Assembly (NCBI GenBank): GCA_947472765.1 | Contig: CANJCM010000055.1 | Location: forward strand, 1 to 32,534 | Length of the DNA: 32,534 nucleotides | Direction of reading: 5' to 3' | From: Opitutia bacterium | Lineage (GTDB): Bacteria; Verrucomicrobiota; Verrucomicrobiia; Opitutales; Opitutaceae | In this document: one piece after another, positions 1,293 to 30,499 of the stretch | Layout: each line of letters opens with the position of its first letter | Position numbering within the stretch: the stretch's first letter is position 1 | Notes under the pieces: model-generated | Told to the model about the DNA's origin: nothing | What the model saw: only the letters and a program-made list of their open reading frames with translations | The model's database searches: none | Made by a program: the position numbers and the translations under genes

Positions 1293-1366
1293 ATGGAGGG
1301 CGGGTGCCCACACCCGCCAAGACGCCTAAGGCAACGCCGCGGCCGGTGGGGGCACCGGCCCTCCAT
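1293..1366. repeat. Inverted pair of 26-bp palindromic elements (family 1)
   Basis: A forward copy at 1293-1318 and an inverted copy at 1341-1366. Each starts with ATGGAG and contains an 8-bp stem around a 4-nt loop. The forward stem is GGCGGGTG with CACCCGCC; the other is GGCCGGTG with CACCGGCC, so both sides of the stem changed together. The pair sits exactly between the convergent ends of hisI and lpxA and may act as a processing or termination structure for both. Confidence 0.85.
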
Positions 1367-1398
1367 CGGAAAAGCGGCGCTTCCGCCCGCCGGATTGA

Positions 1399-2187
1399 CT
1401 ACCGCGAACCGGGGGCGAGTCCGCGTTCGCTGCCGCGGGCAAACTCGAGCACGAGCTTGAACTCGGCGCTGCCGGCCTCGGCATGCGCGCCGATCTTCTC
1501 CAGCGCCTGCGTCCGGTTGAGCCCGTCGCGATACAGCACGCGGTGGAGTTGTTTCACCCGATCGATTTGATCCGCGGAAAATCCGTGCCGCTCCAATCCG
1601 ACCTTGTTGATCGCGCGCACCTCGGCCGGCGTGCCGTCCGCGATGAAGAACGGCGGCAAATCCTGCACGAGCTTGGCCGTCGCCGAGAGCATGGAATAGG
1701 CGCCCAGCCGGCAAAACTGATGCACACCGCCGTAGCCGCCGATCACGACGTGATCCGAGACGTGCACATGGCCGGCGAGCACGGCGCCGTTGCTCATGAT
1801 GATGTGACTGCCGAGCACGCAGTCATGCGCGATGTGGCAGGTTGCGAGCAGGACGTTGTCCGAGCCGACGCGCGTGACATCGCCGTCATTGGTCGCGCAA
1901 TGGACCGTGACGTATTCGCGGAAGACATTCCGGTCGCCAATGCGGAGGCCGGGGTTGCCGCCCTTGAATTTCAGGTCCTGCGTCTTCCCGCCGATGCACG
2001 CGTAAGGGAAAATCTCGCAACTGCGACCGAGGACCGTGTTGCCCTCGACCGACGCGTGATGATGGAGGCGCGTCCCCTCTCCGAGTGTAACGGCCCCGCC
2101 GACGTAGGCATAGGCGCCCACCTCGACCCCGGCGCCAAGCTGCGCGCCCGGTTCGATGATCGCCGTCGCGTGGATCTTCGCCGCCAT
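1399..2187 (-). CDS. lpxA: UDP-N-acetylglucosamine acyltransferase (lipid A synthesis)
   Basis: The 262-residue product transfers an acyl chain from acyl carrier protein to UDP-GlcNAc, the first step of lipid A synthesis. The N-terminal two thirds consists of hexapeptide repeats of the left-handed beta-helix (IHATAIIEPGAQLGAGVEVG onward). CHIAHDC at 117-123 supplies the catalytic histidine H121 (E. coli H125). The C-terminal part, with GTPAEVRAINKVGLERHGF, is the usual helical domain. Length is normal. The ATG lies 4 bases after the stop of lpxC-fabZ, so the two are co-transcribed and probably translationally coupled. It is one of the few genes here with a GAGG motif before the start. Confidence 0.97.
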   Translation of the reverse strand: MAAKIHATAIIEPGAQLGAGVEVGAYAYVGGAVTLGEGTRLHHHASVEGNTVLGRSCEIFPYACIGGKTQDLKFKGGNPGLRIGDRNVFREYVTVHCATNDGDVTRVGSDNVLLATCHIAHDCVLGSHIIMSNGAVLAGHVHVSDHVVIGGYGGVHQFCRLGAYSMLSATAKLVQDLPPFFIADGTPAEVRAINKVGLERHGFSADQIDRVKQLHRVLYRDGLNRTQALEKIGAHAEAGSAEFKLVLEFARGSERGLAPGSR

Positions 2188-2191
2188 ACCC

Positions 2192-3523
2192 TCAGTTGAC
2201 CTCGGAGTTGTCGACGAGCGCGAACATCAGGTCGGCGGAAGACGTCACCTGGCCGTTCACCGTGCACTCGCCCTCGGCCATGCCGATCTTGTTGCCCCGG
2301 CTCTTCGTCATGCGGACATGGATCATGAGCTGATCGCCGGGGCGCACGGCGCGGCGGAACTTCACCTTGTCGCAGCTCATGAAGAGGGCGGTTTTGCCCT
2401 CGGTGGACATGCGCCGCATCATGAGAACGCCGGCCGCCTGAGCCATCGCCTCGATCTGGAGCACGCCGGGCATGACGGGATTTCCCGGGTAGTGGCCTTG
2501 GAAGTAGGGTTCGTTGAACGAGACATTCTTCAACGCCGTCAATTCGTCCGCGCCCTTCAATTCGACGACGCGGTCGAGCATCAGGAATGGATAACGATGC
2601 GGCAGGGCCTCGAGGATGCCGCGAATGTCGATGGAAGTCTCCTCGACCGCCGGGTCAGCCGCGGCGCGTTCCTTCTTCTTCGGCGCGTCCTTGCGCGCCT
2701 GCAGCTTCGCGAAGAGCAGCTTCGTCAGTTCGGCGTTGATCGCGTGGCCGGGGCGCGTCGCGACGATGTGGGCCTTCAACGGCAGCCCGAGGAGCATGAC
2801 GTCCCCGATGATATCGAGCATCTTGTGCCGGACGAACTCGTCTTTGAACCGCAGCGGTTCCTTCGAGATGATCTTGTCGCCCCGGATGACAACCGCGCAG
2901 TCGAGTGAGCCGCCGCGAATCTTGCCGAGCTTCAGCAATTCCTCGATGTCCTCGTAGATCGTAAACGTCCGCGCCGCCGCGATCTCGTTGGTGTAACTCT
3001 CCGGATCGATCGTCAGGGAGAGGAACTGGGTGTGGATCCCGCGATCGTCGGCCGACGTGCACGAAATCTTAAATTCCTCGGACGGCAGCGCGATGATCGA
3101 CGAGTTGCCGCGGGTCACGGAAATCGGCGCATCGAGATGGAAGTACACCCGCTCCGCGTCCTGCTCGACCGGCTTGCCCTGCTGGATCAACGCCACGAAC
3201 GGCCGCGCCGAACCGTCCATGATCGGCGGCTCGGAGGCGTCCATCTCCACGATCACGTTGTCGACGCCGCATCCATGCAGCGCGCTGAGGACGTGTTCGA
3301 CGGTGTGAATCTTGGCGTGACCGGACTGGATGGTCGTCGCCCGGACGAGGTCCGTGACCTGGTCGACCCGCGGCCGCAATTCCGGCTCACCGCTGAGGTC
3401 CATTCGTTTGAACACGATGCCGGTGTTCGCCGGCGCGGGCTTCATGGTCAGGGTGACGGCATCTCCGGTGTGGAGGGCGCTGCCCTTGATGGAGACCTCG
3501 CGCGCGAGGGTGCGTTGTTTCAT
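2192..3523 (-). CDS. lpxC-fabZ: Bifunctional UDP-3-O-acyl-GlcNAc deacetylase / (3R)-hydroxyacyl-ACP dehydratase
   Basis: A 443-residue fusion. Residues 1-275 are LpxC, the zinc deacetylase that commits to lipid A: SALHTGD (15-21), zinc-site TVEHVLSAL (74-82, H77), HKMLD (H233, D237) and catalytic-site H260. Residues 295-443 are FabZ, which dehydrates hydroxyacyl-ACP in fatty acid elongation: [13 protein letters not shown] (307-319) and [17 protein letters not shown] with H344 and E358. A Lys/Ala-rich linker (276-292) joins them. All expected catalytic residues are present. Such fusions are known in Bacteroidota and related lineages. The frame stays open upstream to 3772 but would overlap efp; the ATG at 3523 ([14 protein letters not shown]) fits the family start. 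lpxA follows after 4 bases; lpxD is not in this cluster. Confidence 0.96.
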
Positions 3524-3614
3524 TGGCTGACCGCACTTTCGACAGCGGGCGACACCCAGCGCAAGCGCGGAGATGGGCGGAGGTGGTGGTCGCGGTTCCG
3601 AGCCAGTCTGCGGC

Positions 3615-3644
3615 TTGACACTCGCGAGGACGCTTCCCCACTCT
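3615..3644 (+). promoter_or_regulatory. Possible promoter for efp
   Basis: A perfect TTGACA at 3615-3620 is followed after 18 bases by CACTCT (3639-3644), a poor -10 match. It lies in the 168-bp gap between the divergent lpxC-fabZ and efp genes, 48 bases before the efp start. The -35 match is good but the -10 is weak, so this is only a suggestion. Confidence 0.35.
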
Positions 3645-3691
3645 GGACCCTTTCTCGCTCCAAAACAGCCAGCCCGCAACGTCCTCCTGTC

Positions 3692-4249
3692 ATGCCCGCA
3701 GCCAACGATATTCGCAAAGGCCAAGTGATTAAGTTCAACGGCGAGCCGCATCTCGTCATGGAAACCCAGCACCGCACGCCGGGAAATTTGCGGGCGTTCG
3801 TGCAGATCAAGATGCGCAATCTTCGCTACGGCAAGGCCCTCGACCAGCGCTTCGCGTCGACGGACACCATCGAAGTGCTCCCGACGGATCGTCGCACGCT
3901 CGAGTTCAGCTACGCGGATCGCGAAACTTACTCGTTCATGGATCCGGACACGTTCGAGCAGATCGACATCACGGCGACGCAGCTTGGTGACGTGACCAAC
4001 TATCTCGCCGCCGGCGGCAAAGTGGACGTCCTCTTCGTCGACGAGCGCCCGCTCTCCGTCGACCTCCCTTCCACCGTCGCGCTCAAGATCGTCGAATCCG
4101 CCGATGGCGTGAAAGGCGACACCGCGAGCAACGTGCAGAAGCCGGCCAAGCTCGAGACCGGCATGATCGTGCAGGTCCCGCTCTTCATCAAGGCCGGGGA
4201 AGTCATCAAGGTCAGCACGGTGGATGGCTCGTATCTCGGCCGCGTCTGA
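3692..4249 (+). CDS. efp: Translation elongation factor P
   Basis: The 185-residue product should relieve ribosome stalling at consecutive prolines. Three domains are visible: N-terminal KOW-like (1-63), the central OB fold, and the C-terminal OB fold with the family signature [22 protein letters not shown]. The start [17 protein letters not shown] matches family N-termini; the frame is open far upstream but only antisense to lpxC-fabZ. The tip of the domain-I loop, where E. coli carries the modified Lys34 in PGKGQAF, reads PGNLRAF, placing Asn32 at that position. It is therefore neither the Lys (EpmA) type nor the Arg (EarP) type. No modification gene is nearby. Confidence 0.96.
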
Positions 4250-4410
4250 CGCCAGCCGAACGAAGGATCGGACTCTGTCGCAACCGTCCTGCTGGCGGCT
4301 GCGAGGCTAACTGATCGTGTGATTGCCCCGTCATTTCTGAGCGCGCGCGAAGAATGATCGGCTGAGCTGACGGCGTGGCACCCGGCGCGCCCGGCTGTCC
4401 ACGCACTGGC

Positions 4411-5988
4411 TTACTTCCAAGCCCGAACGGTTGCCTCCGGATGCGTCTGGCACTTCCAGATTTTCGGGTCGTCGTCGGACCGCACCATCTTCGCATCACA
4501 TTTCGGACAGCTCGGCGTCGTGTAGTCGCCGACGGAAAATTGCTGCAGCAACTCCGCCCTGACTGGCGGCGGCAGCGCGTTCACCTTCTCCAGCAGCAGA
4601 TCGCCGGAGATCAGAGTGATGTGCTTCTCCTCGGCGAAGTCGCGAGCGGCCACGTTGAACTTGCCTGTGGTCACGACATACCCGCGACGGATGTCCTCGG
4701 TCGTGAGCACCGCGAACAACTCCTGGATGCGGGTCACGTCGACGAGTCCCATCGGATGCGCGAGGCATTGGACGAGCGCGAACGGCCGGGCCTCGCCCTT
4801 CCAGGAAATCTTGATGTGCACGGCGCTGTCCGGGCCGGCTTTGGTCCTGACCGCCACGACGCCGGTCCTGCTATAATAAGCAGCGACCAGTTCTTCGAAG
4901 CGCTTCCACTCGAGACTGGCAAGGAGCTCCGCCGGAACCATCGCACCCTCGCTGGCCGCCGGCGCGAAGCTGAAAGGGGGCCGCGAAACGGCGGAGGCGG
5001 CGAGCTCAAGCTGGCGCTGATTCCGCCGCCAAATCAAAAAGCCCGCACCCGCACCGATGATGATGGCGGCAAAGAGGTAGGTGCGTCCGGTGAAGATGAC
5101 CTCCTTGGGCTCGGGAAAATCGGGATCAGCCGACTGACGCTTGGTTGCGACCTTCTTGGCCGTGCCCTTGGCCGGCTCGGCCGTGGGCGCGACGTCAGGC
5201 CCGTCCGGACGATCAACCGGCGTCGGCTCGGCGGCGAGCGGCGACGGGGCGGATGATGCGACGGCGGTCGCCGGGGACGCGGCCGATTCCGGGACCTTGT
5301 CCACCGCTGGAGTCACGGGGTCCGCCTTCGGAGCGACCGGAGCGGTCGGGGGCGTATCGGTCGCCGCGACCGGAAAAACCGACTTCTGGGTCGGCGCACC
5401 AGCCGCGGGCGTCGCGGCCACCGGAGCTGCCGACGGCTCGCTCCTCGGAGCGGGACGTGAACCACCGGCGGAAGGAGGCCGGACCGACTTGATGGCGAGC
5501 TGCGGTTCCGCTGGCGCGGCGGGAGCGGGCGCAGCGACATCGGTCGAACCCGCGGCAACCGGGGCGGGCGCAGGAGCGCCCGCGGGGGCGACCGGTGGCG
5601 ATTGGGGCGCGACGCTCCCCGCGTTTGGTGTCGGGTCGCCCGTGACAGTCACAGGGTTCGCGGCTGACGTCGGGGCCGCGGCAGGTGCAGCCGCTGGCGC
5701 CGGGGTCGGCACCGCGGGGGGAGCCGCGCGGCGGGCCCCAAAGTCGGGTGCAACATTGTCGGCCTCGACGACAATTCCGTTGCGCAGCACCACGCGCTCG
5801 CGCGCAAAGAGAATGACCTCACGACCGCCGGCCGCGAGCTGACTCTTGGGCTCGCCCAGTTTGTCGAGCAACTGTTCACGCGTCAGCCCGAGCAGCGGCG
5901 ACTTCTCGGCTGCGAACAGGGCGGCGGCGGAGAGCAGCACCATCGCGCATCCCACCCTCACGCCTCTGGCTAACGTGTATGCCGTCAT
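4411..5988 (-). CDS. Membrane-anchored protein with degenerate Mrr-like nuclease domain and zinc ribbon
   Basis: A 525-residue protein of unusual layout. Residues 1-27 are a signal-like hydrophobic N-terminus. Residues 31-80 form a small domain with LTREQLLDKLGEP, as in SmpA/OmlA-type outer-membrane-assembly proteins. Residues 85-290 are a Pro/Ala/Thr linker. A transmembrane helix (304-320) is followed by RRNQR, which places the C-terminus in the cytoplasm. Residues 355-482 resemble the Mrr_cat restriction-endonuclease fold (FEELVAAYY, then GPDSAVHI and ALVQCL). The usual metal-binding Asp is H391 and the Lys of QxK is L409, so cleavage is unlikely. C494, C497, C513 and H516 form a zinc-ribbon-like end. 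It may sense or bind nucleic acid at the membrane; function unknown. A start at M16 is possible. Confidence 0.75.
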   Translation of the reverse strand: MTAYTLARGVRVGCAMVLLSAAALFAAEKSPLLGLTREQLLDKLGEPKSQLAAGGREVILFARERVVLRNGIVVEADNVAPDFGARRAAPPAVPTPAPAAAPAAAPTSAANPVTVTGDPTPNAGSVAPQSPPVAPAGAPAPAPVAAGSTDVAAPAPAAPAEPQLAIKSVRPPSAGGSRPAPRSEPSAAPVAATPAAGAPTQKSVFPVAATDTPPTAPVAPKADPVTPAVDKVPESAASPATAVASSAPSPLAAEPTPVDRPDGPDVAPTAEPAKGTAKKVATKRQSADPDFPEPKEVIFTGRTYLFAAIIIGAGAGFLIWRRNQRQLELAASAVSRPPFSFAPAASEGAMVPAELLASLEWKRFEELVAAYYSRTGVVAVRTKAGPDSAVHIKISWKGEARPFALVQCLAHPMGLVDVTRIQELFAVLTTEDIRRGYVVTTGKFNVAARDFAEEKHITLISGDLLLEKVNALPPPVRAELLQQFSVGDYTTPSCPKCDAKMVRSDDDPKIWKCQTHPEATVRAWK

Positions 5989-6092
5989 TCCAAAAAAATC
6001 TTTGCGGCAACGCAATCGGCACAGCAATGCCGAACTTAGCGCGCACACCTCGACAGGTGCGTTCAGGCTGGAGCTGACTGAGTCCGGCCGAT

Positions 6093-7340
6093 TCACGCGA
6101 CACGCGCCCAAAGCACCTTGAGATAACGACTCTCGAGACAGTTCGAGAACACGGGATGATCCGGTCCAGGACCGGTGCGATCGAAGAACTGCAGCCGGCG
6201 ATCCTGCCGGTGCGCCGCCTTGATCACGTGGGCCTCGAAGTCCTCGAGCGAGAGCAGGCCGGAGCACGAGCAGGTGACGAAAATCCCGCCCGGCTTCACC
6301 AGCGAGATCGCGAGCAGGTTCAAGTCCTCGTACTTCTGCCGGCCTTCCCAATTGCCGTGGGCATCGCGGGTGAAAATGAACTTTGGCGGATCGAGCACGA
6401 CGACGTCCCACTTCTCCCCGTTGCTCTGCATCTGTCGCGCATAGGCGAAGGCGTCGGCATGCACGAATTTCAGCCGGGCCTGGTTGAGGTTCGAGTTGCG
6501 CTTCGCCTGGGCGAGCGCGACCTCATCGAGATCGACGGCCGTCACCTCCTCCGTGCCACCGGTGACCTTGGCGTTGAGTGAAAAGCCGCCGGTGTAGCAG
6601 CACAGATCGAGCACCCGCGCACCCTTCGTAAACCGAGAGAGGGCGCGGCGGTTGTCGCGTTGATCGCAGAAGAACCCCGTCTTGTGACCCTCGGCGAAGT
6701 CCACCTCGTAACGGATGCCGTGCTCGGTGATCTTCACCAGCCGCGGCGCCGCCGTGTTGGTGGCGTTGAACATCGACGGCTTGATCCCTTCGAGACTGCC
6801 GAGGTCGTGATCAACATGCACCCGGGCGAACTTCGTGCCGCACAGTTCGTGCAGCAGCGGCAACCATCCAGGCAGGCGCTGCGCGATGCCGAGACTGTGG
6901 ACCTCGCACAGCAGCACGTCGCCGTACCGATCAATCATCAGGCCGCTGAGGCCGTCACCATCCGAGTTGATCAGCCGGTAGGCGTCGGTGACGGCATCGA
7001 GTTGGAAGAGATCCCGGCGCAGGGCGACGGCGCGACGGATGGCTCCTTCAAAATACGATTCCGCCACCGGCTCGGTGGAGTGGCATACGACGCGGAGCGG
7101 AATCTTCGCGCGGGGATTGAAGAGTCCGCCGCCTGCGAGGTTGCCGTTCTTGTCGTAGACGTTGACGAAGTCACCGGGACGGGCGTCGGACGAAACCTGG
7201 CCGAGCAGCCGCGGGAAGATCGCAGGCTGGAAGGTGAAATATTTCAACTGCGCCCACGGCTTGGGCCACGCGGAGCGATCGATCGGCGGCACCGGGGCGG
7301 AGGGCCGCGACGGCTGCGCGAAGGGCGTGGATTCGGTCAT
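6093..7340 (-). CDS. Class I SAM-dependent RNA methyltransferase, RlmI/YccW family
   Basis: The 415-residue product probably methylates a cytosine in 23S rRNA (RlmI makes m5C1962 in E. coli). The N-terminal part (about 30-110) is PUA-like with GDFVNVYDKNGNLAGGGLFNP; a middle domain has INSDGDGLSGLMIDRYGD. The methyltransferase domain has KTGFFCDQRDNRR, motif I VLDLCCYTGGFSLNA, an acidic AVDLDEVAL, motif IV VLDPPKF and the cysteine-bearing TCSCSG. The catalytic cysteine is within that last motif. The N-terminus carries about 25 extra residues. It follows the Mrr-like gene on the same strand with a 104-bp gap. The exact target nucleotide is inferred only from the family. Confidence 0.88.
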   Translation of the reverse strand: MTESTPFAQPSRPSAPVPPIDRSAWPKPWAQLKYFTFQPAIFPRLLGQVSSDARPGDFVNVYDKNGNLAGGGLFNPRAKIPLRVVCHSTEPVAESYFEGAIRRAVALRRDLFQLDAVTDAYRLINSDGDGLSGLMIDRYGDVLLCEVHSLGIAQRLPGWLPLLHELCGTKFARVHVDHDLGSLEGIKPSMFNATNTAAPRLVKITEHGIRYEVDFAEGHKTGFFCDQRDNRRALSRFTKGARVLDLCCYTGGFSLNAKVTGGTEEVTAVDLDEVALAQAKRNSNLNQARLKFVHADAFAYARQMQSNGEKWDVVVLDPPKFIFTRDAHGNWEGRQKYEDLNLLAISLVKPGGIFVTCSCSGLLSLEDFEAHVIKAAHRQDRRLQFFDRTGPGPDHPVFSNCLESRYLKVLWARVA

Positions 7341-7411
7341 GGCTGCACAAGGGACGAGCCCCGCGTGGCGGGCAATTTTTTTGACGTCGGGATCGAGCCG
7401 CGTACCGGGAC

Positions 7412-7438
7412 AAAAAAGGCCGGCCCAGAAGGCCGGCC
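7412..7438 (-). terminator. Intrinsic terminator after the pyrimidine phosphorylase gene
   Basis: Read on the minus strand, two GGCCGGCC blocks (7438-7431 and 7425-7418) enclose a 5-nt loop and form an 8-bp all-GC stem, followed directly by six Ts (7417-7412). It lies 37 bases beyond the stop at 7475 and upstream of the methyltransferase gene, so it separates the two transcripts. Confidence 0.88.
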
Positions 7439-7474
7439 CGAAAACTCATCCCAAGAAAATCGCGCAGCGATTTC

Positions 7475-8821: not shown

Positions 8822-9158
8822 AGGTGTGTGTAGGATACGCCTGCCGGGGGACGCCCCGGGCGCGGAAAAGTTTGCCAGCCAATGTGCTTCAGCGGAAAAG
8901 TCGAGCTCAAACCCGCCCGCCGCCGACCCAGTGGCCTTGCAGAAACGCGTATAATAAACCCGGTGACGCCGGCCCGCCATTGGGTGTGTACCCCGTCAGA
9001 GTGGGGCCTTCCCAACACCCGGGTCCTTCGGCGCGAGCGAGTTGCGTCAAGGCGAGACCAACGACCCCGAAGTGGCCCGCCGGCCCCGACCCGACGCGGC
9101 AGACGCCATCACGGCAAAAGCTTGCACGCGGCGCGCGCGTTCCGGTTTCCTCGCCGGG
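8822..9158. other. Divergent region between the phosphorylase gene and argS
   Basis: No gene is seen. TATAAT at 8950-8955 could be an argS -10 element, but no good -35 lies at the right spacing. Downstream, 8982-9020 can fold into a two-part hairpin: GGGTGT (8982-8987) with ACACCC (9015-9020), and inside it CCCC (8991-8994) with GGGG (9003-9006). It would lie in the argS leader, about 140 bases before the start. There is no T-run after it, so it is not an obvious attenuator. Confidence 0.3.
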
Positions 9159-10913: not shown

Positions 10914-10975
10914 CCGGACGGCGCGGCGAAACAAAACGCTCTTGCCGCACCTGCGGCGGCTGCCAGCCTCCGCGC

Positions 10976-15101: not shown

Positions 15102-15105
15102 GACG

Positions 15106-16894: not shown

Positions 16895-16920
16895 ATGGAG
16901 GGCGGGTGTCCACACCCGCC
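16895..16920. repeat. Family 1 palindromic element, single forward copy
   Basis: It starts with ATGGAG and has stem arms GGCGGGTG and CACCCGCC around a TCCA loop. It fills most of the 67-bp gap between the convergent ends of the TolC-like gene and miaA. Confidence 0.85.
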
Positions 16921-17955: not shown

Positions 17956-18867
17956 GTGCAGTTTCGGGTTTTCTTCATCGTCGCGGTACCGTTGGGTTCC
18001 TGCACGCCACTGAAAACCCGATTCATCGTCAACCTCCGCTCCGGCCGCGCCCGGAAGATCCTGCCCGCCGTGCGCGCGTTCGCGGCCACCCTGCCCGCGG
18101 AGGTTCGGCTGACCGAGTACGCCCGGCACGCGGCCATCCTCGCCGCGGAAGCCGTGGCCGAGGGTTGTGAACTCGTCGTCGCCGTCGGCGGCGACGGCAC
18201 GATGAACGAGGTCGCCGGTGCGCTGGTGCACACGCCCGCCACGCTCGGGCTCGTCCCGTCCGGCTCGGGCGACGGACTCGGCCGGCACCTCGGGATCCAC
18301 GGTTCGCTCCGCCACGTCTTCCACACCCTGCAATCGGGCACGCCGCGGTTGATCGACAGCGGACTCGCCGACGGCCATCCGTTCTTCAGCGTTGCCGGAC
18401 TCGGTCTTGAGGCGGACATCGCCTCCCGCTTCAACCGCCTCACGCGCCGCGGCCTGCCCGGTTACCTGCGGGTGGGCGCGGTCGCCTGGTGGCACTCCCA
18501 GCCGATCGATTACGTCATCTGTCACGACGGCCACCGCGAGGCGTTCCGCACGCTTACCCTCGCCGTCGCCAACGCCAGCCAGTACGGCAACAACACTCGC
18601 GTGGCTCCAGCCGCCTCCGTCGAGGACGGCCAGCTCGATCTTGTCGCCATCCCGCCGCTTTCCCTCGGCAATTCCCTGCCGCTGCTCGGCCGGCTCGGCG
18701 CGGGCACGTTCACGGACGCCGCCGCCGTGCGTCACCTGCGCGGCACCCGGTTCGTCATCGAACGCGCCACACCCGGATTGCTGCAGACGGACGGCGAGGT
18801 CCACGAAGCGGGCCGCAGCGTCGAATTCGTTGTCCGCCCTGCCAGCCTCCGAATCATGACGCCTTAG
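17956..18867 (+). CDS. Diacylglycerol-kinase-family lipid kinase
   Basis: About 303 residues, resembling YegS/BmrU/DgkB and sphingosine kinases, which phosphorylate lipid hydroxyl groups at the inner face of the membrane. Seen: FIVNLRSGRARK near the N-terminus, ELVVAVGGDGTMNEVAGAL with GGDGT at 78-82, LVPSGSGDGLGRHLGI (the nucleotide-site glycine loop), VAGLGLEADIASRFN, VANASQYGNNTRVAPAASVEDGQLDLV and QTDGEVHEA near the end. The start is unclear: a TTG at 17920 lies inside the REP arm, a GTG at 17956 is chosen here, and a TTG at 17992 is closest to the usual family start. The TAG stop lies inside a 24-bp inverted repeat shared with the next gene. Confidence 0.88.
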   Translation: MQFRVFFIVAVPLGSCTPLKTRFIVNLRSGRARKILPAVRAFAATLPAEVRLTEYARHAAILAAEAVAEGCELVVAVGGDGTMNEVAGALVHTPATLGLVPSGSGDGLGRHLGIHGSLRHVFHTLQSGTPRLIDSGLADGHPFFSVAGLGLEADIASRFNRLTRRGLPGYLRVGAVAWWHSQPIDYVICHDGHREAFRTLTLAVANASQYGNNTRVAPAASVEDGQLDLVAIPPLSLGNSLPLLGRLGAGTFTDAAAVRHLRGTRFVIERATPGLLQTDGEVHEAGRSVEFVVRPASLRIMTP

Positions 18868-18992
18868 GGAATGCCGATTGCCGAATTCCGAGTGCCGAAT
18901 TGAGGCGGGACATTGCGGACGGCCGCACGCCGCGCCCCTTGGTGTTCTTCCGCCACTCGGCAATCGCCATTCGGCAATCGGCATTCCCTAAG
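18863..18992. repeat. 24-bp perfect inverted repeat joining two convergent genes
   Basis: The arm 18863-18886 (starting CTTAGGGAATGCCGATT) is repeated exactly and inverted at 18969-18992. The TAG in each arm is the stop codon of the gene entering it: the lipid kinase from the left and the GGDEF regulator from the right. The 82-bp interior continues with further diverged copies of the GAATGCCGA word. No T-run follows either arm. Confidence 0.92.
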
Positions 18993-20879: not shown

Positions 20880-21025
20880 TGGATTTGAAGGCTGCGGCTC
20901 AGTATCCGGCCCGAATTGAGAGGGGCTTGCACGCCCGCCCCAAAAACCAGGCGGCGCGCGTTGCGCGCGGCGCCCCGCTTTGCTCTTTGCGCCTCCGCCG
21001 CCACGGTGCTTTCTTCACGGTCCAC

Positions 21026-21796: not shown

Positions 21797-22266
21797 GCGC
21801 AAGGACGCGAGAGCGCGAACCAGAGCAGTCATCCCGGTCAGCACACCCCGGCGCTCTTCGACTAGCTCAGAGCCTTTACTTTAGGCGAACGTCAGGCCGT
21901 GAGCCTGTCGAACGGCTGCGCGCCAACCCTCTGGAGCCGGAACGATGCAGTGGAAGGAAATCGGCGGGTGTGGGCACCCGCCCTCCATGGCAGGGGGATT
22001 GTTCAGACTTCCGTTCGCTCTCCTCTCAAAGAGCAATCCATGGAGGGACGGTGCCCTCACCGTCCACGATCTCCTTACGTCGGACGGGGCGTTCACCGTT
22101 TGGTGTCGGGCCGGCTCGAGAGGGGATGGCTCGCACCTCGCCTCGGGGTCTTCGCGCTTTATCGCGGCGCTCGGCATTGGCGCGGGCTGTTGTCTTGAAC
22201 GCGCTGCGCCCGAACGTAACGTCGCCCAATCCCCGCCGGTTCGCGCCGGTTCACCCCTCGAGCCCC
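21797..22266. other. 470-bp intergenic region packed with repeats
   Basis: No gene is recognised. After a tract of GCGCAAGGACGCGAGAGCG type (about 21798-21817), an inverted repeat with arms around TTCGACTAGCTCAGAG (21854-21874) and GTGAGCCTGTCGAA (21895-21915) follows. Two family 1 palindromes come next, inverted at 21963-21988 and forward at 22040-22065. The last 200 bases are GC-rich and unremarkable. Confidence 0.6.
21963..22065. repeat. Two family 1 palindromic elements pointing outward
   Basis: The inverted copy 21963-21988 is identical, after reversal, to the forward copy at 1293-1318. The forward copy 22040-22065 has the third stem version, GGACGGTG with CACCGTCC. Their order is opposite to that of the other pairs, with 51 bases between them. 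Confidence 0.85.
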
Positions 22267-23388: not shown

Positions 23389-23502
23389 AGCGGCCACGAA
23401 ATTGCGTTCTCAATTCGGGCGTGGACGAGCCCCGCCCCTACACGGAAATTTCACCGTTCATCGTCTGTAGTCTGTAGTCGGCCATCCCCTCTCCTCCCCT
23501 TC

Positions 23503-25455
23503 ATGTCCACCTCCTTGCTTCGCCTCCTCGGCCTCGGGCTGCTGGCCTTCGGCTCCCTCCAAGCGCAAAACGCCGTCACCGCCGGCAAGTTCACGGTCGA
23601 GCATCCGACGCTGCTCAACCTCGGCTTCGAGTGGGAAATCTCCGGTGACGCCAATCGCAACGCGACCGTCTCTGTCCAGTTTCGCGCCGTCGGCGAACCC
23701 GCCTGGCGCACTGCGCTCCCGCTCGTCCGAATCGGCGGCGAACGCGTTTTCCGGGCGGTGGAGCATCTCGACTACACCGTCCCCGACGGCTTCGCCGGCA
23801 GCATCCTCAACCTGCAACCGGGCACCGAATACGAGTGCCAGTTCCAGCTCGCCGATCCCGATGGAGCGTCCGGCACCGTCAGCCAGTCCGTGCGCGTGAA
23901 GACCCGCACCGAGCCCCAGCCTTACAAGGGCGGCCGCACCCTGCACGTCTACGCCCCCGATTACAAAGGCGAGAAGCTCGAGCCAAGTTTCAGCAGCCTG
24001 CTCGAGGCTTACTACGGCGCGGGCCTCGGCGACTGGAGCGTCGTCTGGGAGCGCCGCGCCCAGCCCGGCGACACGATCCTGTTGCACGCCGGACTCTACA
24101 AACCTGATCGGCTGAACTACGTCGACCCGATGATGGCGCCGTTCGACGGCACGATGTCGCTGACGTTGAAAGGCACCGCCGAGAAGCCGATCACGATCAA
24201 ATCCGCCGGCGACGGCGAGGTCATCATCGACGGCGCGGGCAACCACAACCTGTTCGAGGTCTCCGCCTCGGCGCACCACATCTTCGAGGGCCTCACGCTT
24301 CGCAACACCGACGTCGGCTTCGCGGCCGGCCAGAAGGAAGTGATCGGCGCCGTCGCCCTCACGGTGAAGAACTGCCGCCTCGAGAGCGTCGGCTTCGGCG
24401 TCTGGACCGAGTTCGCGGGCTCGAGCGATTTTTACATCGCGGACAATCTCATCCTCGGCCGCGACGATCGCTTCCGGCTCATCGGCTGGACCGGGCCGCG
24501 CTGGGCCAGTGCCGGCGCCTACGGTTCGCATCTGATGGTCAGTTACTACGCCATCAAGATCTACGGACCCGGCCACGTCATCGCCCGCAACGCCATCGCC
24601 TACTTCCACGACGGCATCGGCATCTCGACCTACGGCACGCCGGAAAAGGATCCGGACCGCCGCGCATCGTCGATCGATATTTACGGGAACGACATTCACA
24701 TGTCCAACGACGACTTCGTCGAGACCGACGGCGGCGTGCACAACGTCCGTGTCTTCGGCAACCGCGGCGTGAATGCGGCCCAAGGTGGCTACAGTGCGCA
24801 GCCTTCCTTCGGCGGCCCGATCTATTTTTTCCGCAACCTGCTCTACAACGTCCCGACGGGCGTCGCCTTCAAATTCTCCGCCAAGGCCGCCGGGCTCTTC
24901 GTCTGGCACAACACGATCATCAGCGAGCACCGGGCGAAGGACCCGTACGCCAATGCGCATTATCGCAACAACCTCTTCCTCGGCCGCGACGCCCCCGACC
25001 GCGGGGTGATGGTGTGGGCGAATGCCACAAGCGCGTTCAGCAGCGACTACAACGGCTACCGGCCCAACCGCGGCGTCAGCGCGCAGTACGAGTGGCTCGC
25101 CCCGGAAAAAGCCGGCGGCAACACCTACACCGCGAAGCCCGACGCGTGGGTCGCGTACGGCACGCTCGAGGAATTACGCACCGCGACCGGCCAGGAAAAG
25201 CACGGCCGGGAAGTCGACTACAACATCTTCGAACGCCTCGTCGCGCCGTCCCAGAATCGTCACGACGTCTATCACGCGATGGATCTGAATTTCCGACTGA
25301 AGGCCGGCAGCGCGGCCGTCGATGCGGGGGTACCGATTCCCACGGTCAACGAAGGCTTCCTCGGTAAAGCCCCGGATCTCGGCGCCCTCGAGTCCGGCGC
25401 CCCCGAGCCCCACTACGGCCCGACGTGGCTGAAGTGGCAGCCGTTTTATCGCTGA
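23503..25455 (+). CDS. Secreted right-handed parallel beta-helix protein
   Basis: A 650-residue exported protein with a signal peptide (MSTSLLRLLGLGLLAFGSLQA). Residues 28-145 look like a fibronectin type III-like domain (FRAVGEPAWR, LQPGTEYECQFQL). From about 180 there are beta-helix repeats: PGDTILLHAGLYKPD, KPITIKSAGDGEVIIDGAGNHNLFEV, HHIFEGLTLRNTDVGF, VKNCRLESVGFGV, IDIYGNDIHMSNDDFVETDGG, RVFGNRGVN and HNTIISEHRA. The end has the AAVDAGVPIP ... LGALE pattern common on such proteins. The fold is shared by pectate and alginate lyases and polysaccharide epimerases, so it probably binds or cuts a polysaccharide, but no catalytic residue can be assigned. It starts 114 bases after the UxuA-like gene on the same strand, possibly in one transcript. 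Confidence 0.82.
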   Translation: MSTSLLRLLGLGLLAFGSLQAQNAVTAGKFTVEHPTLLNLGFEWEISGDANRNATVSVQFRAVGEPAWRTALPLVRIGGERVFRAVEHLDYTVPDGFAGSILNLQPGTEYECQFQLADPDGASGTVSQSVRVKTRTEPQPYKGGRTLHVYAPDYKGEKLEPSFSSLLEAYYGAGLGDWSVVWERRAQPGDTILLHAGLYKPDRLNYVDPMMAPFDGTMSLTLKGTAEKPITIKSAGDGEVIIDGAGNHNLFEVSASAHHIFEGLTLRNTDVGFAAGQKEVIGAVALTVKNCRLESVGFGVWTEFAGSSDFYIADNLILGRDDRFRLIGWTGPRWASAGAYGSHLMVSYYAIKIYGPGHVIARNAIAYFHDGIGISTYGTPEKDPDRRASSIDIYGNDIHMSNDDFVETDGGVHNVRVFGNRGVNAAQGGYSAQPSFGGPIYFFRNLLYNVPTGVAFKFSAKAAGLFVWHNTIISEHRAKDPYANAHYRNNLFLGRDAPDRGVMVWANATSAFSSDYNGYRPNRGVSAQYEWLAPEKAGGNTYTAKPDAWVAYGTLEELRTATGQEKHGREVDYNIFERLVAPSQNRHDVYHAMDLNFRLKAGSAAVDAGVPIPTVNEGFLGKAPDLGALESGAPEPHYGPTWLKWQPFYR

Positions 25456-25917
25456 CAGCGCAATCAATGGAGGGACGGTGCTCTCACCGTCCATGACGGC
25501 AGAATGTCCGCCTGAACGTTAACCATCTGTGCTGCGTCGGCGCTAGTCGCCGAGCCACGTTCATCATTCGTGAACCGGCGTGCCGGCGAGCGGCGGCATT
25601 ACATTCTCCTCCATCGTTCCGACCGGAGACGGCTGGCGCGCAGCGCCGGGGTGTGTTGGCCCAGGCCGGACAGCAATCCCAGTCCAAGTCCTCCGCGCCC
25701 TCCGTCCACCTCCGCGTCCTCTGCGTTAAAAAAATCCGCACCCGTCCTCCCCCAACTCCTTCGCTGCAATTTTCATTTCCCTTCCCGGCCGAATTCCCAT
25801 TCGCTCCGCTCCTCCGTCAGCCGCCCCTACCCCTTTCGTCTCCGACTTCCGGCATCCGTCCTCCGCCGTCCGACGTCCGCCGCTCCTACTTTCGTCCCTC
25901 CGAATCCGCTAACCCCC
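25456..25917. other. Intergenic region with a long pyrimidine-rich stretch
   Basis: No gene is supported. It begins with a family 1 palindrome (25467-25492), followed by a small hairpin CGGCG/CGCCG near 25537-25552. At 25689-25726 there is a word tract of CCTCCGCGC, CCTCCGTCCA, CCTCCGCGT and CCTCTGCGTT units. From about 25740 to the creatininase-like start the plus strand is mostly C and T, with further TCCG/GTCC words. No Shine-Dalgarno or clear promoter is visible. Confidence 0.5.
25467..25492. repeat. Family 1 palindromic element, single forward copy
   Basis: ATGGAG tag, then stem arms GGACGGTG and CACCGTCC around a CTCT loop. It begins 12 bases after the stop of the beta-helix gene and could form the 3' end of its transcript. 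Confidence 0.85.
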
Positions 25918-26856
25918 ATGTACTCACCTCGCTCCTCCTCCTGGTTCCGCGCCGCCGGGCTCGTCCTGGCCGGCTGTCTCGTGGCCGCTGCTCCGCTGCA
26001 GGCCCAAGTCCGCAAGCTCCACACTCGTGATTTCACCCGGCTCAGCCAGGTCCAGGTCACGGAACAACTCAAACAGAGCGACGTCATCTTCATTCCGATT
26101 GGTTCGGTCGAGACCAACGGCACCCAGCCGAGCGATCGCGACTGGGTCGCTGGCCTCGGCTTCGCCATCGCGATGGCCGATGAAGTCGGCGGCCTCTACA
26201 TGCCCGGCCTCATGTGGTCCTACCCGGGCACGACGCTGATCGCGACGGCGACGATCAACATCTCGCCGACGCAGGGTATCGACTTCCTCAAGGCCACGTG
26301 CGAGTCGCTGATTCGCGCCGGTTTCCGCCGCATCGTCTTCGTTTCGTCGGGCCACGGCCCGGCGCCAATGACGGCGGGCGTGGTGCTGCGCGAACTCTTC
26401 GACAAGTTCCGTACCCCGCTGCTCTACCTCGAAATGGGTGAGCAGATGGCGCGGCTGAAGATCGCCGGGGACGCCCGCAACAAGCTCCTTTACGGCTCTC
26501 ACCACCTCGCAGGCCGGATGATCGACCTCGCGCTCAAAGGTGAGTATGGCGATGGCCCGACCGACGCCATCCCGGTGAATCCCGGCATGGAAGAACTCGG
26601 CAAGCTCGGCGTCACGGGCAGCCTGGCCGTCGGCTCGTGGATCACCGACTACCGCGGCCACGGTCCTCGCAGCCAGGTCCTCCCGGCCACCGACGCGGAG
26701 CGCGAAAAGTGGGGTCAGGAAGGCGAGGCCCAGATCCGCGACGTCGTGAAGAAGCTCAACATCAAGGCCGTCGTCGAGGCGCAGAAGAAGCACGACGAGT
26801 TCACGAACAAGGTTCTCGTTCCGAAGTACCAGTCGATCCTGCCGCCGCAGCCGTAA
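25918..26856 (+). CDS. Exported creatininase-family protein with altered metal ligands
   Basis: A 312-residue protein. The N-terminus (SSSWFRAAGLVLAGCLVAAAPLQAQ) is a signal peptide; LAGC at 17-20 is also a lipobox, so it could be a lipoprotein, although the stretch after it suggests ordinary cleavage after LQA. The remainder follows the creatininase fold: IFIPIGSVETNGTQPSDRDW (58-76), PGLMWSYPGTT, RRIVFVSSGHGPAPMTAG (138-153) and SHHLAGRM. Family enzymes bind zinc or manganese through an E-x-H motif, a nearby Asp and a later His and Glu. Here E65 is kept but the next ligand is N67, and HxxE reads as HHLAG without Glu. It may use another metal site or be inactive. A clear terminator follows. 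Confidence 0.8.
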   Translation: MYSPRSSSWFRAAGLVLAGCLVAAAPLQAQVRKLHTRDFTRLSQVQVTEQLKQSDVIFIPIGSVETNGTQPSDRDWVAGLGFAIAMADEVGGLYMPGLMWSYPGTTLIATATINISPTQGIDFLKATCESLIRAGFRRIVFVSSGHGPAPMTAGVVLRELFDKFRTPLLYLEMGEQMARLKIAGDARNKLLYGSHHLAGRMIDLALKGEYGDGPTDAIPVNPGMEELGKLGVTGSLAVGSWITDYRGHGPRSQVLPATDAEREKWGQEGEAQIRDVVKKLNIKAVVEAQKKHDEFTNKVLVPKYQSILPPQP

Positions 26857-26881
26857 GGCCGCCGATCCGGATTTCACTCTC

Positions 26882-26910
26882 AAGCCGCTTCATCATGAAG
26901 CGGCTTTTTT
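26882..26910 (+). terminator. Intrinsic terminator after the creatininase-like gene
   Basis: A perfect 10-bp stem, AAGCCGCTTC (26882-26891) with GAAGCGGCTT (26897-26906), around an ATCAT loop, runs into six Ts (26905-26910). It starts 26 bases after the stop at 26856. Confidence 0.93.
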
Positions 26911-26936
26911 GTGGGCCGACACCAAGCGCCATACCC

Positions 26937-27010
26937 TGGAAGGCCGGTGCCCCCACCGGCCACTTCAAGAACGTAAAGGCATCTCGCCGGGTGAGGACAC
27001 CCACCCTCCA
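26937..27010. repeat. Inverted pair of family 1 elements with shared spacer
   Basis: The forward copy (26937-26961, arms GGCCGGTG and CACCGGCC) is intact. The inverted copy (26986-27010) has mismatched arms and is the only degenerate member seen. The spacer, with AAGAACGTAAAGGCATCTC, resembles that of the pair at 30424-30499 (TTTGAACGTTAAAACTTTTC), so both pairs seem to derive from one composite element. Confidence 0.8.
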
Positions 27011-27028
27011 GCCGGAACGATGCGGTGG

Positions 27029-27134
27029 GGCGGAAATGCCGATGTCCGAATGGCGAATGTCGAATTTCCGCCCCCCCCCAGCCCGTATCCTGCCCATCCT
27101 GCCATCCTGTCCAAACTCCGAAGCGATCCTGTCC
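27029..27134. repeat. Two word tracts upstream of a membrane protein gene
   Basis: 27029-27072 has GGCGGAAAT and its inverse ATTTCCGCC at the ends, with ATGCCGATGTCCGAATGG-type units between them, related to the repeat at 18863-18992. 27087-27112 has ATCCTGCCC, ATCCTGCC and ATCCTGTCC in tandem, with one more unit at 27125-27134. Confidence 0.65.
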
Positions 27135-27199
27135 CCGATGGTGCCGCGTGTCTCGGTTCTCGCCTCCCACCATGACCCCGGCAGTGTTCCCGTCTCACC

Positions 27200-28330
27200 A
27201 TGTGGGTCCTCGCGCGCTTCGGTTTTGCCGCACTCGTTTTTCTCTTCCGCGCGCTCTGGCGTCGGCAGGGCCTGGACCAGTCGGTGATCTACCGTGACAC
27301 CCAGCGCGTCACGCTGGCCAGGCATAAGACGATCGGCCCCCGCCACGATCGCCAGCGGGTAATCTCAAAGATCTATTGGGGTCTCGCACTGCGCACGCCG
27401 CTGGTTTTTGCGCTCACCCGCGAGGGCTGGTGGGACCGCATCTGCACGTTCCTCGGCATCTCCCAGGAACTGCAGACCGGCGACGCCCAATTCGACCGCA
27501 AGATTTACGTGGCCGGCGATCACCCCGCGCTTCACGCGCTGCTCACCGAAGATCCTCAACTCCGGGAACGAATCCTGCGCTTGTTCGAAAAGGGTGCCGT
27601 GCGGATTTTTTGCGACGGCCGGCACCTCTGGGTGGAGTCGGAGGATCTGGCCTATCCCTCCGACCAGGCCTTGGACACGCTCCATGGCATCTATCTCGCG
27701 CTCAAGCACGGCGGTCCAACCCGCGGTCACTGGCTCCTCGATCGGTTCCTGTGGAAGGCGATCCTCGTCGAGGCGCTGGTCTGGTCACTCGCGCTCTACG
27801 GGGCGCCGGCCTTCGTGGAGTCACTCTACCGCGAATACGTGCGGGGAGAAAGCCAGCGCTACCTCGACCTCTGGGCCCTGGCCCGGCCGGCACTCCAGGT
27901 CGCAGCAGCAACCTTTGTCGCGATCTTTGGGCTGGTGATCCTGATCCTGCACGGCTCTTCGCGCGGGCACCGCATCCTGTTGGAGAGTTTCCTGGTCCTC
28001 GCGATCGGTCTGCCGCTCTCCGCCATGGAAGTGGTCTCGGACATCAACCTCAGCGCCAACACCTCGGCGCCGCAGACGTATGACTACCGCGTGGTCAGCC
28101 GCTGGGACACAGACACGAAAAGGACCGACCGCCGCCGTGGTCTGGTCAGCCACTTCCTGCGGCTCGCGCCCGCCACACCCGGTGCGCCCCGCGCGTGGCC
28201 CTACCTCCAGGTCCCCGCTGGACTCTACCACCAAACCAAAACGAACAGCCTCGTGAAGGTGACATTGCAGACCGGCCGGCTCGGCATCCCTTGGATTGTC
28301 CGGGTGGACGCCGTGACATCGATCCCCTGA
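27200..28330 (+). CDS. Unknown inner-membrane protein
   Basis: A 376-residue protein that I cannot assign to a characterised family. One hydrophobic helix is at the N-terminus (about 2-20, ARFGFAALVFLFRALW). A soluble domain (about 30-170) has TGDAQFDRKIYVAGDHPALHALL, followed by RILRLFEKGAVRIFCDGRHLWVES; this 'FD..y.v..D.p.....ll' pattern resembles domains found in DUF3137-like membrane proteins. Three more helices lie at about 187-213, 232-252 and 259-280. A polar C-terminal domain of about 95 residues ends at VRVDAVTSIP. No catalytic motif is seen. It stands alone between repeat-rich gaps, downstream of a terminator, so it has its own promoter. Confidence 0.65.
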   Translation: MWVLARFGFAALVFLFRALWRRQGLDQSVIYRDTQRVTLARHKTIGPRHDRQRVISKIYWGLALRTPLVFALTREGWWDRICTFLGISQELQTGDAQFDRKIYVAGDHPALHALLTEDPQLRERILRLFEKGAVRIFCDGRHLWVESEDLAYPSDQALDTLHGIYLALKHGGPTRGHWLLDRFLWKAILVEALVWSLALYGAPAFVESLYREYVRGESQRYLDLWALARPALQVAAATFVAIFGLVILILHGSSRGHRILLESFLVLAIGLPLSAMEVVSDINLSANTSAPQTYDYRVVSRWDTDTKRTDRRRGLVSHFLRLAPATPGAPRAWPYLQVPAGLYHQTKTNSLVKVTLQTGRLGIPWIVRVDAVTSIP

Positions 28331-28429
28331 GTTAAGCGCGAGGTCGCCAAGGCGCGAAGAAGGCGAATTTCCGCTGCCAGGCAGCACCGGCTGCGCGGAG
28401 AGCCCCTTCCTAGGACCGCCGCAAGGGTT

Positions 28430-28530
28430 CATCGGCTGGGGCTCTGAATCCTGCCCATCCTGTCATCCTGTCCAAATGCCTTGGTTGGATCTCGGTCTTC
28501 CTCGGTTCGCCTCCTGTTCAACCGCTCGGG
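28430..28530. repeat. 100-bp direct repeat, copy A (left of sulfatase)
   Basis: From CATCGGCTGG to about CAACCGCTCGG this segment matches 30225-30321 in the same orientation, with about seven mismatches and a 3-base gap. It includes the tract ATCCTGCCC, ATCCTGTC, ATCCTGTCC (28448-28473). A GCGCTTTCGTGTCTTTG-type tract (28548-28580) then leads to the sulfatase start. Confidence 0.85.
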
Positions 28531-28590
28531 AACGCCGCAAGGGGCTTTCCTTTGCGCTTTCGTGTCTTTGTGGTTCTCAGTCTCGCCGTC

Positions 28591-29961
28591 ATGCGCCTGT
28601 TTCCTGCCTTGCTGCTGTCCCTCGTTCTTTCGGTGTCGACGCTCGTGGCGCAGGCCGCGGGCGAGCCGCCCCTCAACATCGTCGTCCTGCTCGCTGACGA
28701 CTGGCGCCACGACACCCTCGGGATTGCCGGCCATCCCGTGCTCAAGACTCCGCACCTCGATCAACTCGCGCGCGAGGGCGTGCGGTTCACGGAAAATTGC
28801 GTGACCACGTCGATCTGCTGGGTCAGCCGCGCCAGTCTTTTCACGGGCCAGTGGCTGTCGCGCAACGGGTGTGCACCGGCGGGCCCGTTCGCGACTCCCT
28901 GGGACGAGACCTACCCCGGACTGCTCCGCGCCCGCGGCTACTACACCGGCCACGTGGGCAAGTGGCACAACGGCACGTTTCCCGCCGAGCGCTTCGACTA
29001 CGGCGCCGGCCGCATCACCCCGATGCGCCACTGGCTCAAGCAGCCCGACGGCACCGAGATTCACGTCACGAAGAAGAACGAGGATGACGCGATGGAGTTC
29101 CTGCGCACGAGGCCGCGGGAGAAGCCCTTCGTGCTCACCCTCGCGTTTGTCGCGACCCACGCCGAGGACGAGCATCCACAGCAGTTCCGGCCGCAGCCCG
29201 GGAGCATGGCGCTCTACCAGGACGTGACGGTTCCCGTGCCCAAGACCGCGACCGACGACCATTTTCGCCGGCTGCCGCCCTTCATCGCCAACGAGAAGAA
29301 CGAGGGGCGCAACCGCTGGAGGTGGCGCTTCGACACGCCCGCGCGCTACCAGGAGTACATGAAGAACTATTACCGCATGGCGACCGAGCTCGATGCGGTG
29401 TGCGGTCGCGTGCTCGCCGAGCTCAAGGCCCAGGGTGTGCTCGATCGCACGCTGGTCATCTTCACCGGTGACAACGGCTACTTCCACGCCGAGCACGGAC
29501 TCGCCGACAAATGGTATCCCTACCAGGAGAGCATCCGCGTCCCGCTCATCGTGCGGGATCCGCGGCTTCCGCCCGCGCAGCGCGGCACGACGAACGATGC
29601 CTTCACGCTCAACGTCGATCTCGCCCCCACGATCCTCGCCGCCACGGGCACGCCCGCACCCGCCCGCATGCAGGGCCGCGACATTGCACCGCTGTACCTC
29701 GACCCAAAGCCACCGAAATGGCGCGACGAGTTTTTCTACGAGCATGCCACCGTCCGCAGCATCGATTTCATCCCGTCGTCCGAGGCCCTGGTGCGCAAGG
29801 ACGTAAAGTACATCTATTGGCCGGACTTCAAGTACGAGGAGCTCTTCGACCTCCGCGCTGATCCCCTCGAGGAAAACAACCTCGCCGCCGCCCCCGGTCG
29901 CGCCGCCCAGCTCGCCGCGCTCCGCGCCCGCTTTGCCGAGCTCAAAGCCGCCACGAAATGA
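28591..29961 (+). CDS. Secreted sulfatase with non-canonical active-site motif
   Basis: A 456-residue exported sulfatase (signal peptide [22 protein letters not shown]). [17 protein letters not shown] (28-44) gives the metal-binding D36 and D37. [15 protein letters not shown] (74-88) holds C76, which would become formylglycine; the motif is C-W-V-S-R rather than the usual C-x-P-x-[48 protein letters not shown] and the tail [18 protein letters not shown] are typical of S1-family sulfatases of marine and soil Planctomycetota and Verrucomicrobiota, which remove sulfate from polysaccharides. The substrate is not predictable. An anaerobic- or aerobic-type maturase must be elsewhere. The start at 28591 is the ATG before the signal peptide. 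Direct repeats flank the gene. Confidence 0.92.
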
Positions 29962-30035
29962 GGATCCCTGATTCCAAGAAGGACCGGACCAACAGCCGAT
30001 GATTATTCCTAGTTTCCTGGCTTCAGGCTCAAATC

Positions 30036-30086
30036 ACTGAGATTGCCTCGATTTCGTGGACACGGAGTCGAGGCAATCTCAGTTTT
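30036..30086. terminator. 16-bp perfect inverted repeat after the sulfatase gene
   Basis: ACTGAGATTGCCTCGA (30036-30051) is repeated inverted at 30068-30083 around a 16-nt loop that can itself pair CGTG with CACG. TTTT (30083-30086) overlaps the end. It starts 75 bases after the sulfatase stop. It may be a strong terminator, but the stem is longer and less GC-rich than usual, so another role is possible. Confidence 0.55.
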
Positions 30087-30201
30087 CATATTGGAATGGC
30101 AGTGCGAGTAAACGAGAGGACCAGCGGGCTCAAACCAAGGATGCCACTGCGGTTGAACGAAACAAAGCGAACTCCGAGTGCTGCGCTTAAATTTCAGCCA
30201 T

Positions 30202-30227
30202 GGCCGGTGGGGACACCGGCCCTCCAT
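30202..30227. repeat. Family 1 palindromic element, inverted copy
   Basis: Reverse of an ATGGAG-tagged copy with arms GGCCGGTG and CACCGGCC. Its end runs directly into copy B of the 100-bp repeat. Confidence 0.85.
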
Positions 30228-30321
30228 CGGCTGGCGGTTTGAATCCTGCCCATCCTGTCATCCTGTCCAAATGCCTTGGTTGGATCTCGGTCTTCCCCGG
30301 TTCACCTGTTCAACCGATCGG
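30225..30321. repeat. 100-bp direct repeat, copy B (right of sulfatase)
   Basis: Matches 28430-28530 in the same orientation at about 90%, including the ATCCTG tract at 30243-30268 and the shared core AAATGCCTTGGTTGGATCTC. The two copies lie about 1.8 kb apart and enclose the sulfatase gene. Confidence 0.85.
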
Positions 30322-30423
30322 AGGCAGCCGTGGATCCACACTGTTCGATCCAAACCTCCCATCGCTTTTGAACGCGGAGACAATCCGAGGCAAACCGAGG
30401 GACCGGAACGACAAACTTCTCCC

Positions 30424-30499
30424 ATGGAGGGCCGGTGCCCTCACCGGCCACATTTTGAACGTTAAAACTTTTCGGCCGGTGAGGGCACCGGCCCTCCAT
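30424..30499. repeat. Perfect inverted pair of family 1 elements
   Basis: The forward copy 30424-30449 and the inverted copy 30474-30499 are identical over all 26 bases, with a 24-bp spacer. The pair sits 17 bases from the stop of the ThuA gene, between convergent transcripts. Confidence 0.9.

Follow-up and report, generated by a model that had tools for sequence, protein, structure and literature searches.

A 26-bp repeat in the window

The window, that is the whole stretch of 32,534 nucleotides analysed here, contains 11 copies of a 26-bp unit made up of the tag ATGGAG, an 8-bp stem and a 4-nt loop. An earlier note, made from the sequence alone, had listed such copies, and one is present at every position it gave, with two in the last range (30424-30499). 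All 11 lie between long reading frames taken as genes, as judged by eye and for the window only. A relaxed pattern, composed after the copies had been seen, matched 11 times in the window and never in 200 second-order Markov simulations. The copies (called REP copies below) and the larger element that holds two of them are as follows.

1293..1318, plus strand: REP copy with stem A (GGCGGGTG), in a tags-out doublet with the copy at 1341..1366
1341..1366, minus strand: REP copy with stem B (GGCCGGTG)
16895..16920, plus strand: REP copy with stem A, single
21924..22126, plus strand: larger repeated element, short form, with a tags-in A/C doublet (the ends are approximate, with end cores at 21934-21955 on the left and 22109-22125 on the right)
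21963..21988, minus strand: REP copy with stem A, within the larger element
22040..22065, plus strand: REP copy with stem C (GGACGGTG), within the larger element
25452..25529, plus strand: probably a remnant of the larger element's right part, around the 25467 copy (73% identity to 22025-22102)
25467..25492, plus strand: REP copy with stem C
26937..26961, plus strand: REP copy with stem B, tag altered to TGGAAG
26986..27010, minus strand: REP copy with broken stem (6/8 pairs), in a tags-out doublet with the copy at 26937..26961
30202..30227, minus strand: REP copy with stem B
30424..30449, plus strand: REP copy with stem B, in a tags-out doublet with the copy at 30474..30499
30474..30499, minus strand: REP copy with stem B

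The 1293/1341 doublet sits between a hisI-like and an lpxA-like gene (names given by eye from the translations). The stem is a perfect 8 bp in 10 of the 11 copies, the copy at 26986 being the only imperfect one, as the earlier note had stated; in the 26937 copy TGGAAG replaces TGGAGG. The window also holds other repeats. ATCCTGCCCATCCTGTCATCCTGTCCAAA occurs three times (27087-27115, 28448-28476 and 30243-30271), two of these falling inside an 83-bp repeat whose copies at 28430-28512 and 30225-30307 are 94% identical, and a GCCGA(A)T-rich repeat occurs twice (18867-18901 and 27032-27066, 80% identity).

Distribution in the genome and in relatives

In the whole genome (157 contigs, 4.97 Mb) the strict pattern matches 391 times, 195 and 196 times on the two strands, and the reversed pattern 0 times. 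At 26 bp and with this number of copies, the unit falls within the usual description of a REP (a palindrome of 20-40 bp present in many copies), and a recent local duplication, the origin that the earlier note had named as fatal to its reading, is ruled out by the genome-wide strict copies. A sample of 1.62 Mb that includes the window and covers 33% of the genome gave 165 copies when up to three mismatches were allowed at the 18 fixed positions; the same sample reversed gave 1. The genome is also home to several REP families whose tags differ. In the genome sample L046-L125, with one mismatch counted, several further tagged hairpin families are abundant, for example GTAGGGGCGCGCC with 83 matches (reversed control 11), GTGGCACGGGTC with 70 (17), GTRGCCCTGTCC with 88 (13) and GTAGGGCCGGCGC with 91 (30).

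Strict copies are rare elsewhere. They occurred in 3 of the 56 other genomes of the first relatives search, all of the same genus and with 5, 2 and 1 copies, which corresponds to 3 of 26 same-genus genomes. G151, from another genus of the same family, has six copies with stem A. The spacer between hisI and lpxA (10-135 nt) contained no copy in seven same-genus genomes, these being the 7 of 11 other same-genus loci at which both the hisI-like and the lpxA-like ends could be placed.

Stem subfamilies and conservation of the hairpin

Two stem pairs were left free in the sample search, and its 165 copies are distributed over CG-CG (stem A, 58), AC-GT (stem C, 47), CC-GG (stem B, 44) and other combinations (16). 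Among the copies with no more than 2 mismatches, both free pairs are Watson-Crick in 147 of 154, so that arms varying independently, which would have contradicted the earlier note, were not encountered. Its statement that both sides always change together is correct insofar as the paired changes are real; they fall into three discrete subfamilies and do not amount to a large number of compensated changes that arose independently. Subfamilies of this kind are already described for REPs, and stems A, B and C were probably copied from different sources. Free variation of the loop, also claimed earlier, does not hold, as CCCC, CCCT or CCCA makes up the loop in 57 of 69 strict copies of a first 0.82-Mb sample.

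The maintenance of the fold was assessed in copies of the larger element that were located by its 50-nt spacer alone, so that the hairpin played no part in their choice. This search returned 28 matches, 27 of them full length. The counts leave out one right REP with a 1-nt loop deletion, one spacer of different length and three left REPs, of which one lies at the end of a contig and two have indels or are truncated. Deviating positions amount to 6/800 in the stem, 7/200 in the loop, 12/300 in the six-letter tag and 92/1300 in the spacer. For stem against spacer this gives a Fisher p of 1.6e-13, a naive value since the copies share ancestry, and for loop against spacer p is 0.07. Only 5 of 400 stem pairs are altered: three remain G-T on the tag strand (two of these being a single change found in two similar copies), in one a double change to another Watson-Crick pair turns C into B, and the last is broken. 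The hairpin is thus conserved far better than the spacer, in agreement with the earlier proposal of a maintained fold; the means may be use, arm-to-arm correction or conversion.

Doublets and a larger repeated element

The sample copies form 99 clusters: 42 singlets, 51 doublets and 6 larger groups. Single B copies account for 20 clusters. In 11 tags-out A/B doublets neither flanks nor spacers are shared and conservation stops at the tags; such doublets look like REPINs, and their mobility as a unit is putative. The commonest doublet, found in 23 clusters, has an A copy on the minus strand and a C copy on the plus strand separated by 77 nt, with the tags pointing inward. Altogether 27 A/C doublets, holding 54 of the 165 sample copies, are located in the larger repeated element, and their alignment reveals conservation extending tens of bases past both hairpins. 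The left end of this element (CACCCCTCTCGAGCCGGAACGATGCAGTGGAA) reappears as its reverse complement at the right of many copies, and a long form additionally holds a GTAG-tagged doublet of another family.

A search with the end core yielded 55 matches, 36 of which lack an inward partner, and 10 inward pairs (one spurious, one without the repeat). The ends are accordingly not sharply defined, and a MITE with terminal inverted repeats is a candidate reading of the element. With three mismatches allowed, 152 occurrences of the end core were counted in the genome. No clear target-site duplication was seen in the flanks examined, and the end core is absent within 900 nt of all seven Y1 genes of the genome. 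It is repeated in G016, a genome with the strict repeat, and also in same-genus genomes that lack any strict copy (37 occurrences in G023, 15 in G018, 11 in G010). Because of the latter, the larger element seems to be older than the repeat and to have captured it. In itself it looks like a mobile element with a longer history in the genus. The copies within it have probably spread as its passengers, and part of the spread of the family may therefore be due to this element, which suggests a second route of dispersal for a REP, carried along by some other mobile element.

The associated transposase gene

A RAYT-type (Y1) gene, which the earlier note had proposed to look for, is present. Among the seven Y1 genes of the genome, only one lies within 900 nt of A, B or C copies:

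Contig C32, about 35378-35830, minus strand: RAYT gene L036 (start approximate)

Eight copies flank it, five on one side and three on the other, with A and C alternating and two of the eight pairing at 7/8; one further partial copy adjoins. Its product scores 99.6 bits against NF047646 (REP_Tyr_transpos), above the cut-off of 80, and matches PDB 4er8, 'TnpArep', at E 9.9e-9; the other six Y1 proteins remain below the RAYT cut-off (51.7-74.9 bits). L036 thus has the features by which a RAYT or REPtron is recognised, namely a REP-associated Y1 transposase of HUH type whose gene has members of one REP family on either side. The resemblance to REP elements suggested in the earlier note is thereby confirmed by the tag at the hairpin foot, the number of copies and the flanked RAYT. 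Its remark that the tag differs from GTAG is true of the letters, GGAG not being GTAG, and needs correction in that GGAG is a one-letter variant in the same place and not an unrelated tag. Of the remaining Y1 genes, L033 has one GGAG hairpin nearby with a different stem, and L037 is surrounded by a GTGG-tagged family. The longest RAYT reading frame (L036:1420-2046, minus strand) opens with the ATG inside a REP tag, a start whose use is putative.

Homologous RAYTs occur in 98 of 150 genomes of the family, its own genome included. The closest one found (61% identity) is carried by G151. Of the three same-genus genomes with the strict repeat, G003 has one homologue at E 1e-15 or better (46% identical), and none was found at E 1e-15 in G016 and G004.

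Tag letter 2 and two transposase residues

Tags could be read by hand in 45 of 70 RAYT loci of relatives and were GTAG, GTGG, GGAG or GGGG. In an alignment of 42 rows, residue 108 of the transposase splits the second tag letter completely, with 25 T (L/V/I/R) and 17 G (F/Q/Y). In 80 later loci, which partly repeat earlier species (10 of 92 rows were removed at 95% identity), a first automatic caller returned 31 T (L/V/I/A), 14 G (F/Y/Q), 1 A and 1 C, with 33 uncalled. As 4 of the 45 hand-read loci disagreed or were uncallable, this caller was replaced by a stricter one that requires 2 or more hairpins with the tag at the foot, 7 or more pairs and no more than 1 wobble, and agreement of two thirds. 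It called 102 of 150 loci (65 T, 36 G, 1 A; 48 uncalled). All 65 T loci have D-H followed by L/V/I/A/R, and all but one of the 36 G loci and the single A locus do not.

Residue 108 alone was rejected as a rule because five loci do not follow it under the final caller (L150, L175, L176, L179 and L246), and a two-residue rule was adopted instead: T if residue 107 is H and residue 108 is not F/Y/Q/W, otherwise G or A. Written after L150 and L246 had been seen, it fits 101 of the 102 callable loci of this first set. For L175, the sole exception under automatic calling, a reading by hand gives a GTAG hairpin in a different register. At L220 the call of A is doubtful, as the same hairpins on the other strand show TGGAG one base off the stem. 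The translated motif of L037, D-H-L, is in line with the rule and its GTGG-tagged family. L150 and L246 both have regular arrays of two alternating GGAG hairpins, with one wobble each, on both sides of a D-R-V RAYT.

With the rule fixed beforehand, all 35 callable fresh loci agreed with it (23 T, 12 G; 25 of 60 uncalled). These 60 remained of 71 after removal of 11 with at least 90% identity to earlier ones; 40 fresh loci were fetched by region, outside the family and in order of E-value, their motifs not having been viewed beforehand, and three fresh loci with an internal stop were skipped. A RAYT-motif pattern search of 288 genomes was too narrow and contributes no result.

Residues 107 and 108 align with H101 and A102 of the E. 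coli TnpAREP, and E100, H101 and R104 are counted among the guide-interacting residues in the part of PMC6006769 drawn on here. From the co-variation across species, the two residues likely set tag letter 2 as T or G. A fuller reading, to which we give somewhat better than even odds, would be that they form a switch beside the known tag contacts, selecting T with D-H and a residue other than F/Y/Q/W and G with, for example, D-H-F, D-R-F/Y or D-T-Q. RAYT and tag would change together and REP populations be re-founded with the new tag, giving the GTAG, GTGG, GGAG and GGGG families in Verrucomicrobiota and in some records of other phyla. With two residues predicting the tag letter in unused loci, tag reading becomes accessible to a simple substitution experiment.

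Interpretation and alternatives

The copy number, the flanked RAYT, the tag-hairpin anatomy, the kept stems, the tags-out doublets, the copy-free hisI-lpxA spacers, the tagged RAYT flanks of relatives and the agreement of tag letter 2 with the residue rule together argue for a REP family with the guide tag GGAG that is spread by its own RAYT (probability roughly 0.88). By analogy with other TnpAREP enzymes, the RAYT would bind the folded single strand, use the tag as guide and cut at a nearby dinucleotide. Under the published guide model, letters A3 and G4 of GGAG would still choose CT as the cut, and residues 107-108 would, judging from the co-variation across species, decide whether letter 2 is T or G. 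Tag-hairpin units could spread through such cutting, part of the copies having probably spread inside the larger element. Counting against this reading, no transposition event, cleavage or base-exact empty site was observed. Further points against it are the rarity of the strict repeat in other genomes of the genus, the two genomes with the repeat, G016 and G004, in which the RAYT homologue was not found at E 1e-15, the possible share of the larger element in the spread and, for the tag rule, the uncalled loci and L175. Perhaps the copies are instead RNA elements, terminators or stabilisers of 3' ends, with stems selected on the transcript and the RAYT incidental. Each window copy lies downstream of at least one gene (by eye), and RNA roles have been proposed for many REPs in the part of PMC3733652 drawn on here; the copies on either side of the RAYT gene, the fixed tag and the tags that track RAYT residues are left unexplained by such a role, which is improbable as the main account. 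A known RNA family was ruled out for the window, where Rfam gave no match at gathering score. A secondary RNA role beside RAYT spread is possible. Still less probable is that the family is mere cargo of the larger element and not moved by the RAYT. The 27 A/C doublets inside that element and the abundance of its end core agree with such a role; the single B copies and the tags-out A/B doublets lie outside it, and they rule it out as carrier of all copies.

Two further alternatives concern parts of the reading based on RAYT spread. The stems might stay perfect without any use, through arm-to-arm correction by template switching or through conversion by other copies. One copy of the larger element with B in place of the usual C and intact pairing, as well as the discreteness of A, B and C with few intermediates, would be expected from such processes; we consider them rather unlikely, as the six-letter tag, which pairing cannot correct, also deviates somewhat less than the spacer, and they address the upkeep of the stems, not the identity of the family. 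A somewhat stronger, though still doubtful, alternative is that tag and residues are linked by shared ancestry, RAYT clades differing in both and neither reading the other. On a tree of 119 rows, with the motif columns removed and L175 omitted, there are three changes of the tag and three of the residues, which coincide, with one independent pair on well-supported branches; an earlier tree of 82 rows has four changes and likewise one such pair. With only three switches on the tree, a code is likely and unproven, and with one well-supported independent pair a sign test has no power and shared ancestry must be taken seriously as a rival. Against ancestry stand the position of both sites next to residues named as guide contacts and the change of the residues at each tag change, including H107R in the single row L150. 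This locus, which combines D-R-V with GGAG, is placed among D-H-L/V rows at a fork of modest support (SH-aLRT 81-90), and it belonged to the loci that shaped the rule.

Comparison with known systems

The closest counterparts are the GTAG REPs of Di Nocera et al. (2013, PMC3733652), among them those of the verrucomicrobium Opitutus terrae. As far as the portions of that paper used here describe them, they share the short hairpin with a tetranucleotide at its foot, the many copies, the singlets and head-to-head or tail-to-tail dimers, the stem subfamilies and the REP-flanked RAYT genes. Most GTAG families have subfamilies with alternative complementary stem residues, and dimer spacers follow a rule of thumb (variable in tail-to-tail, conserved in head-to-head dimers), which the GGAG doublet spacers fit. 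The tags given there are GTAG, GYAG, GYRG, GTRG, GTMG and GTGG, whereas the tag here is GGAG, a string absent from the main text of PMC3733652; by this one letter the present family falls outside the GTAG superfamily, whose members have GTAG or one of its described variants at the foot. The REPINs of Bertels and Rainey (2011, PMC3116915, in the sections consulted) resemble our family in their scattered inverted REP doublets and linked RAYT. They differ in that the tags-out spacers are unconserved here and the most frequent doublet has its tags inward and belongs to a larger element.

The group 3 REPtrons of Corneloup et al. (2021, PMC8266576) have a comparably short RAYT, a perfect 8-bp palindrome and a foot tag able to guide the cut site. 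According to the sections of that work used here, the guide model was tested for one group 3 enzyme, with letters 3-4 (A, G) choosing the CT cut; the tag studied was GTAG with its mutants, in contrast to the present one, and GGAG is absent from the main text. How group 3 RAYTs read the tag is left partly open there, and the residue pair described above bears on this question. The TnpAY1 classification of Quentin et al. (2018), in the portions of PMC6006769 consulted, describes the same WQ....D[H/R]..R region, and its section 14 gives D at position 100 and reports an occasional R in place of H101 in subclasses 2.5 and 2.7, without a stated link to another tag letter. Its automatic REP search used the tags GTAG and GTGG, other structures being handled by hand, and searches based on these two tags would miss GGAG and GGGG families. 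In PMC2817692 the string GGAG occurs 16 times and, in the covered part of one table, lies inside REPs with other tags; among the titles and abstract openings listed by literature searches (for one search 25 of 169), none named a GGAG-tagged REP. A REP family with its cognate RAYT is thus of a known kind, and what is new, as far as these searches show, is that the tag is GGAG and that it co-varies with two residues of the RAYT.
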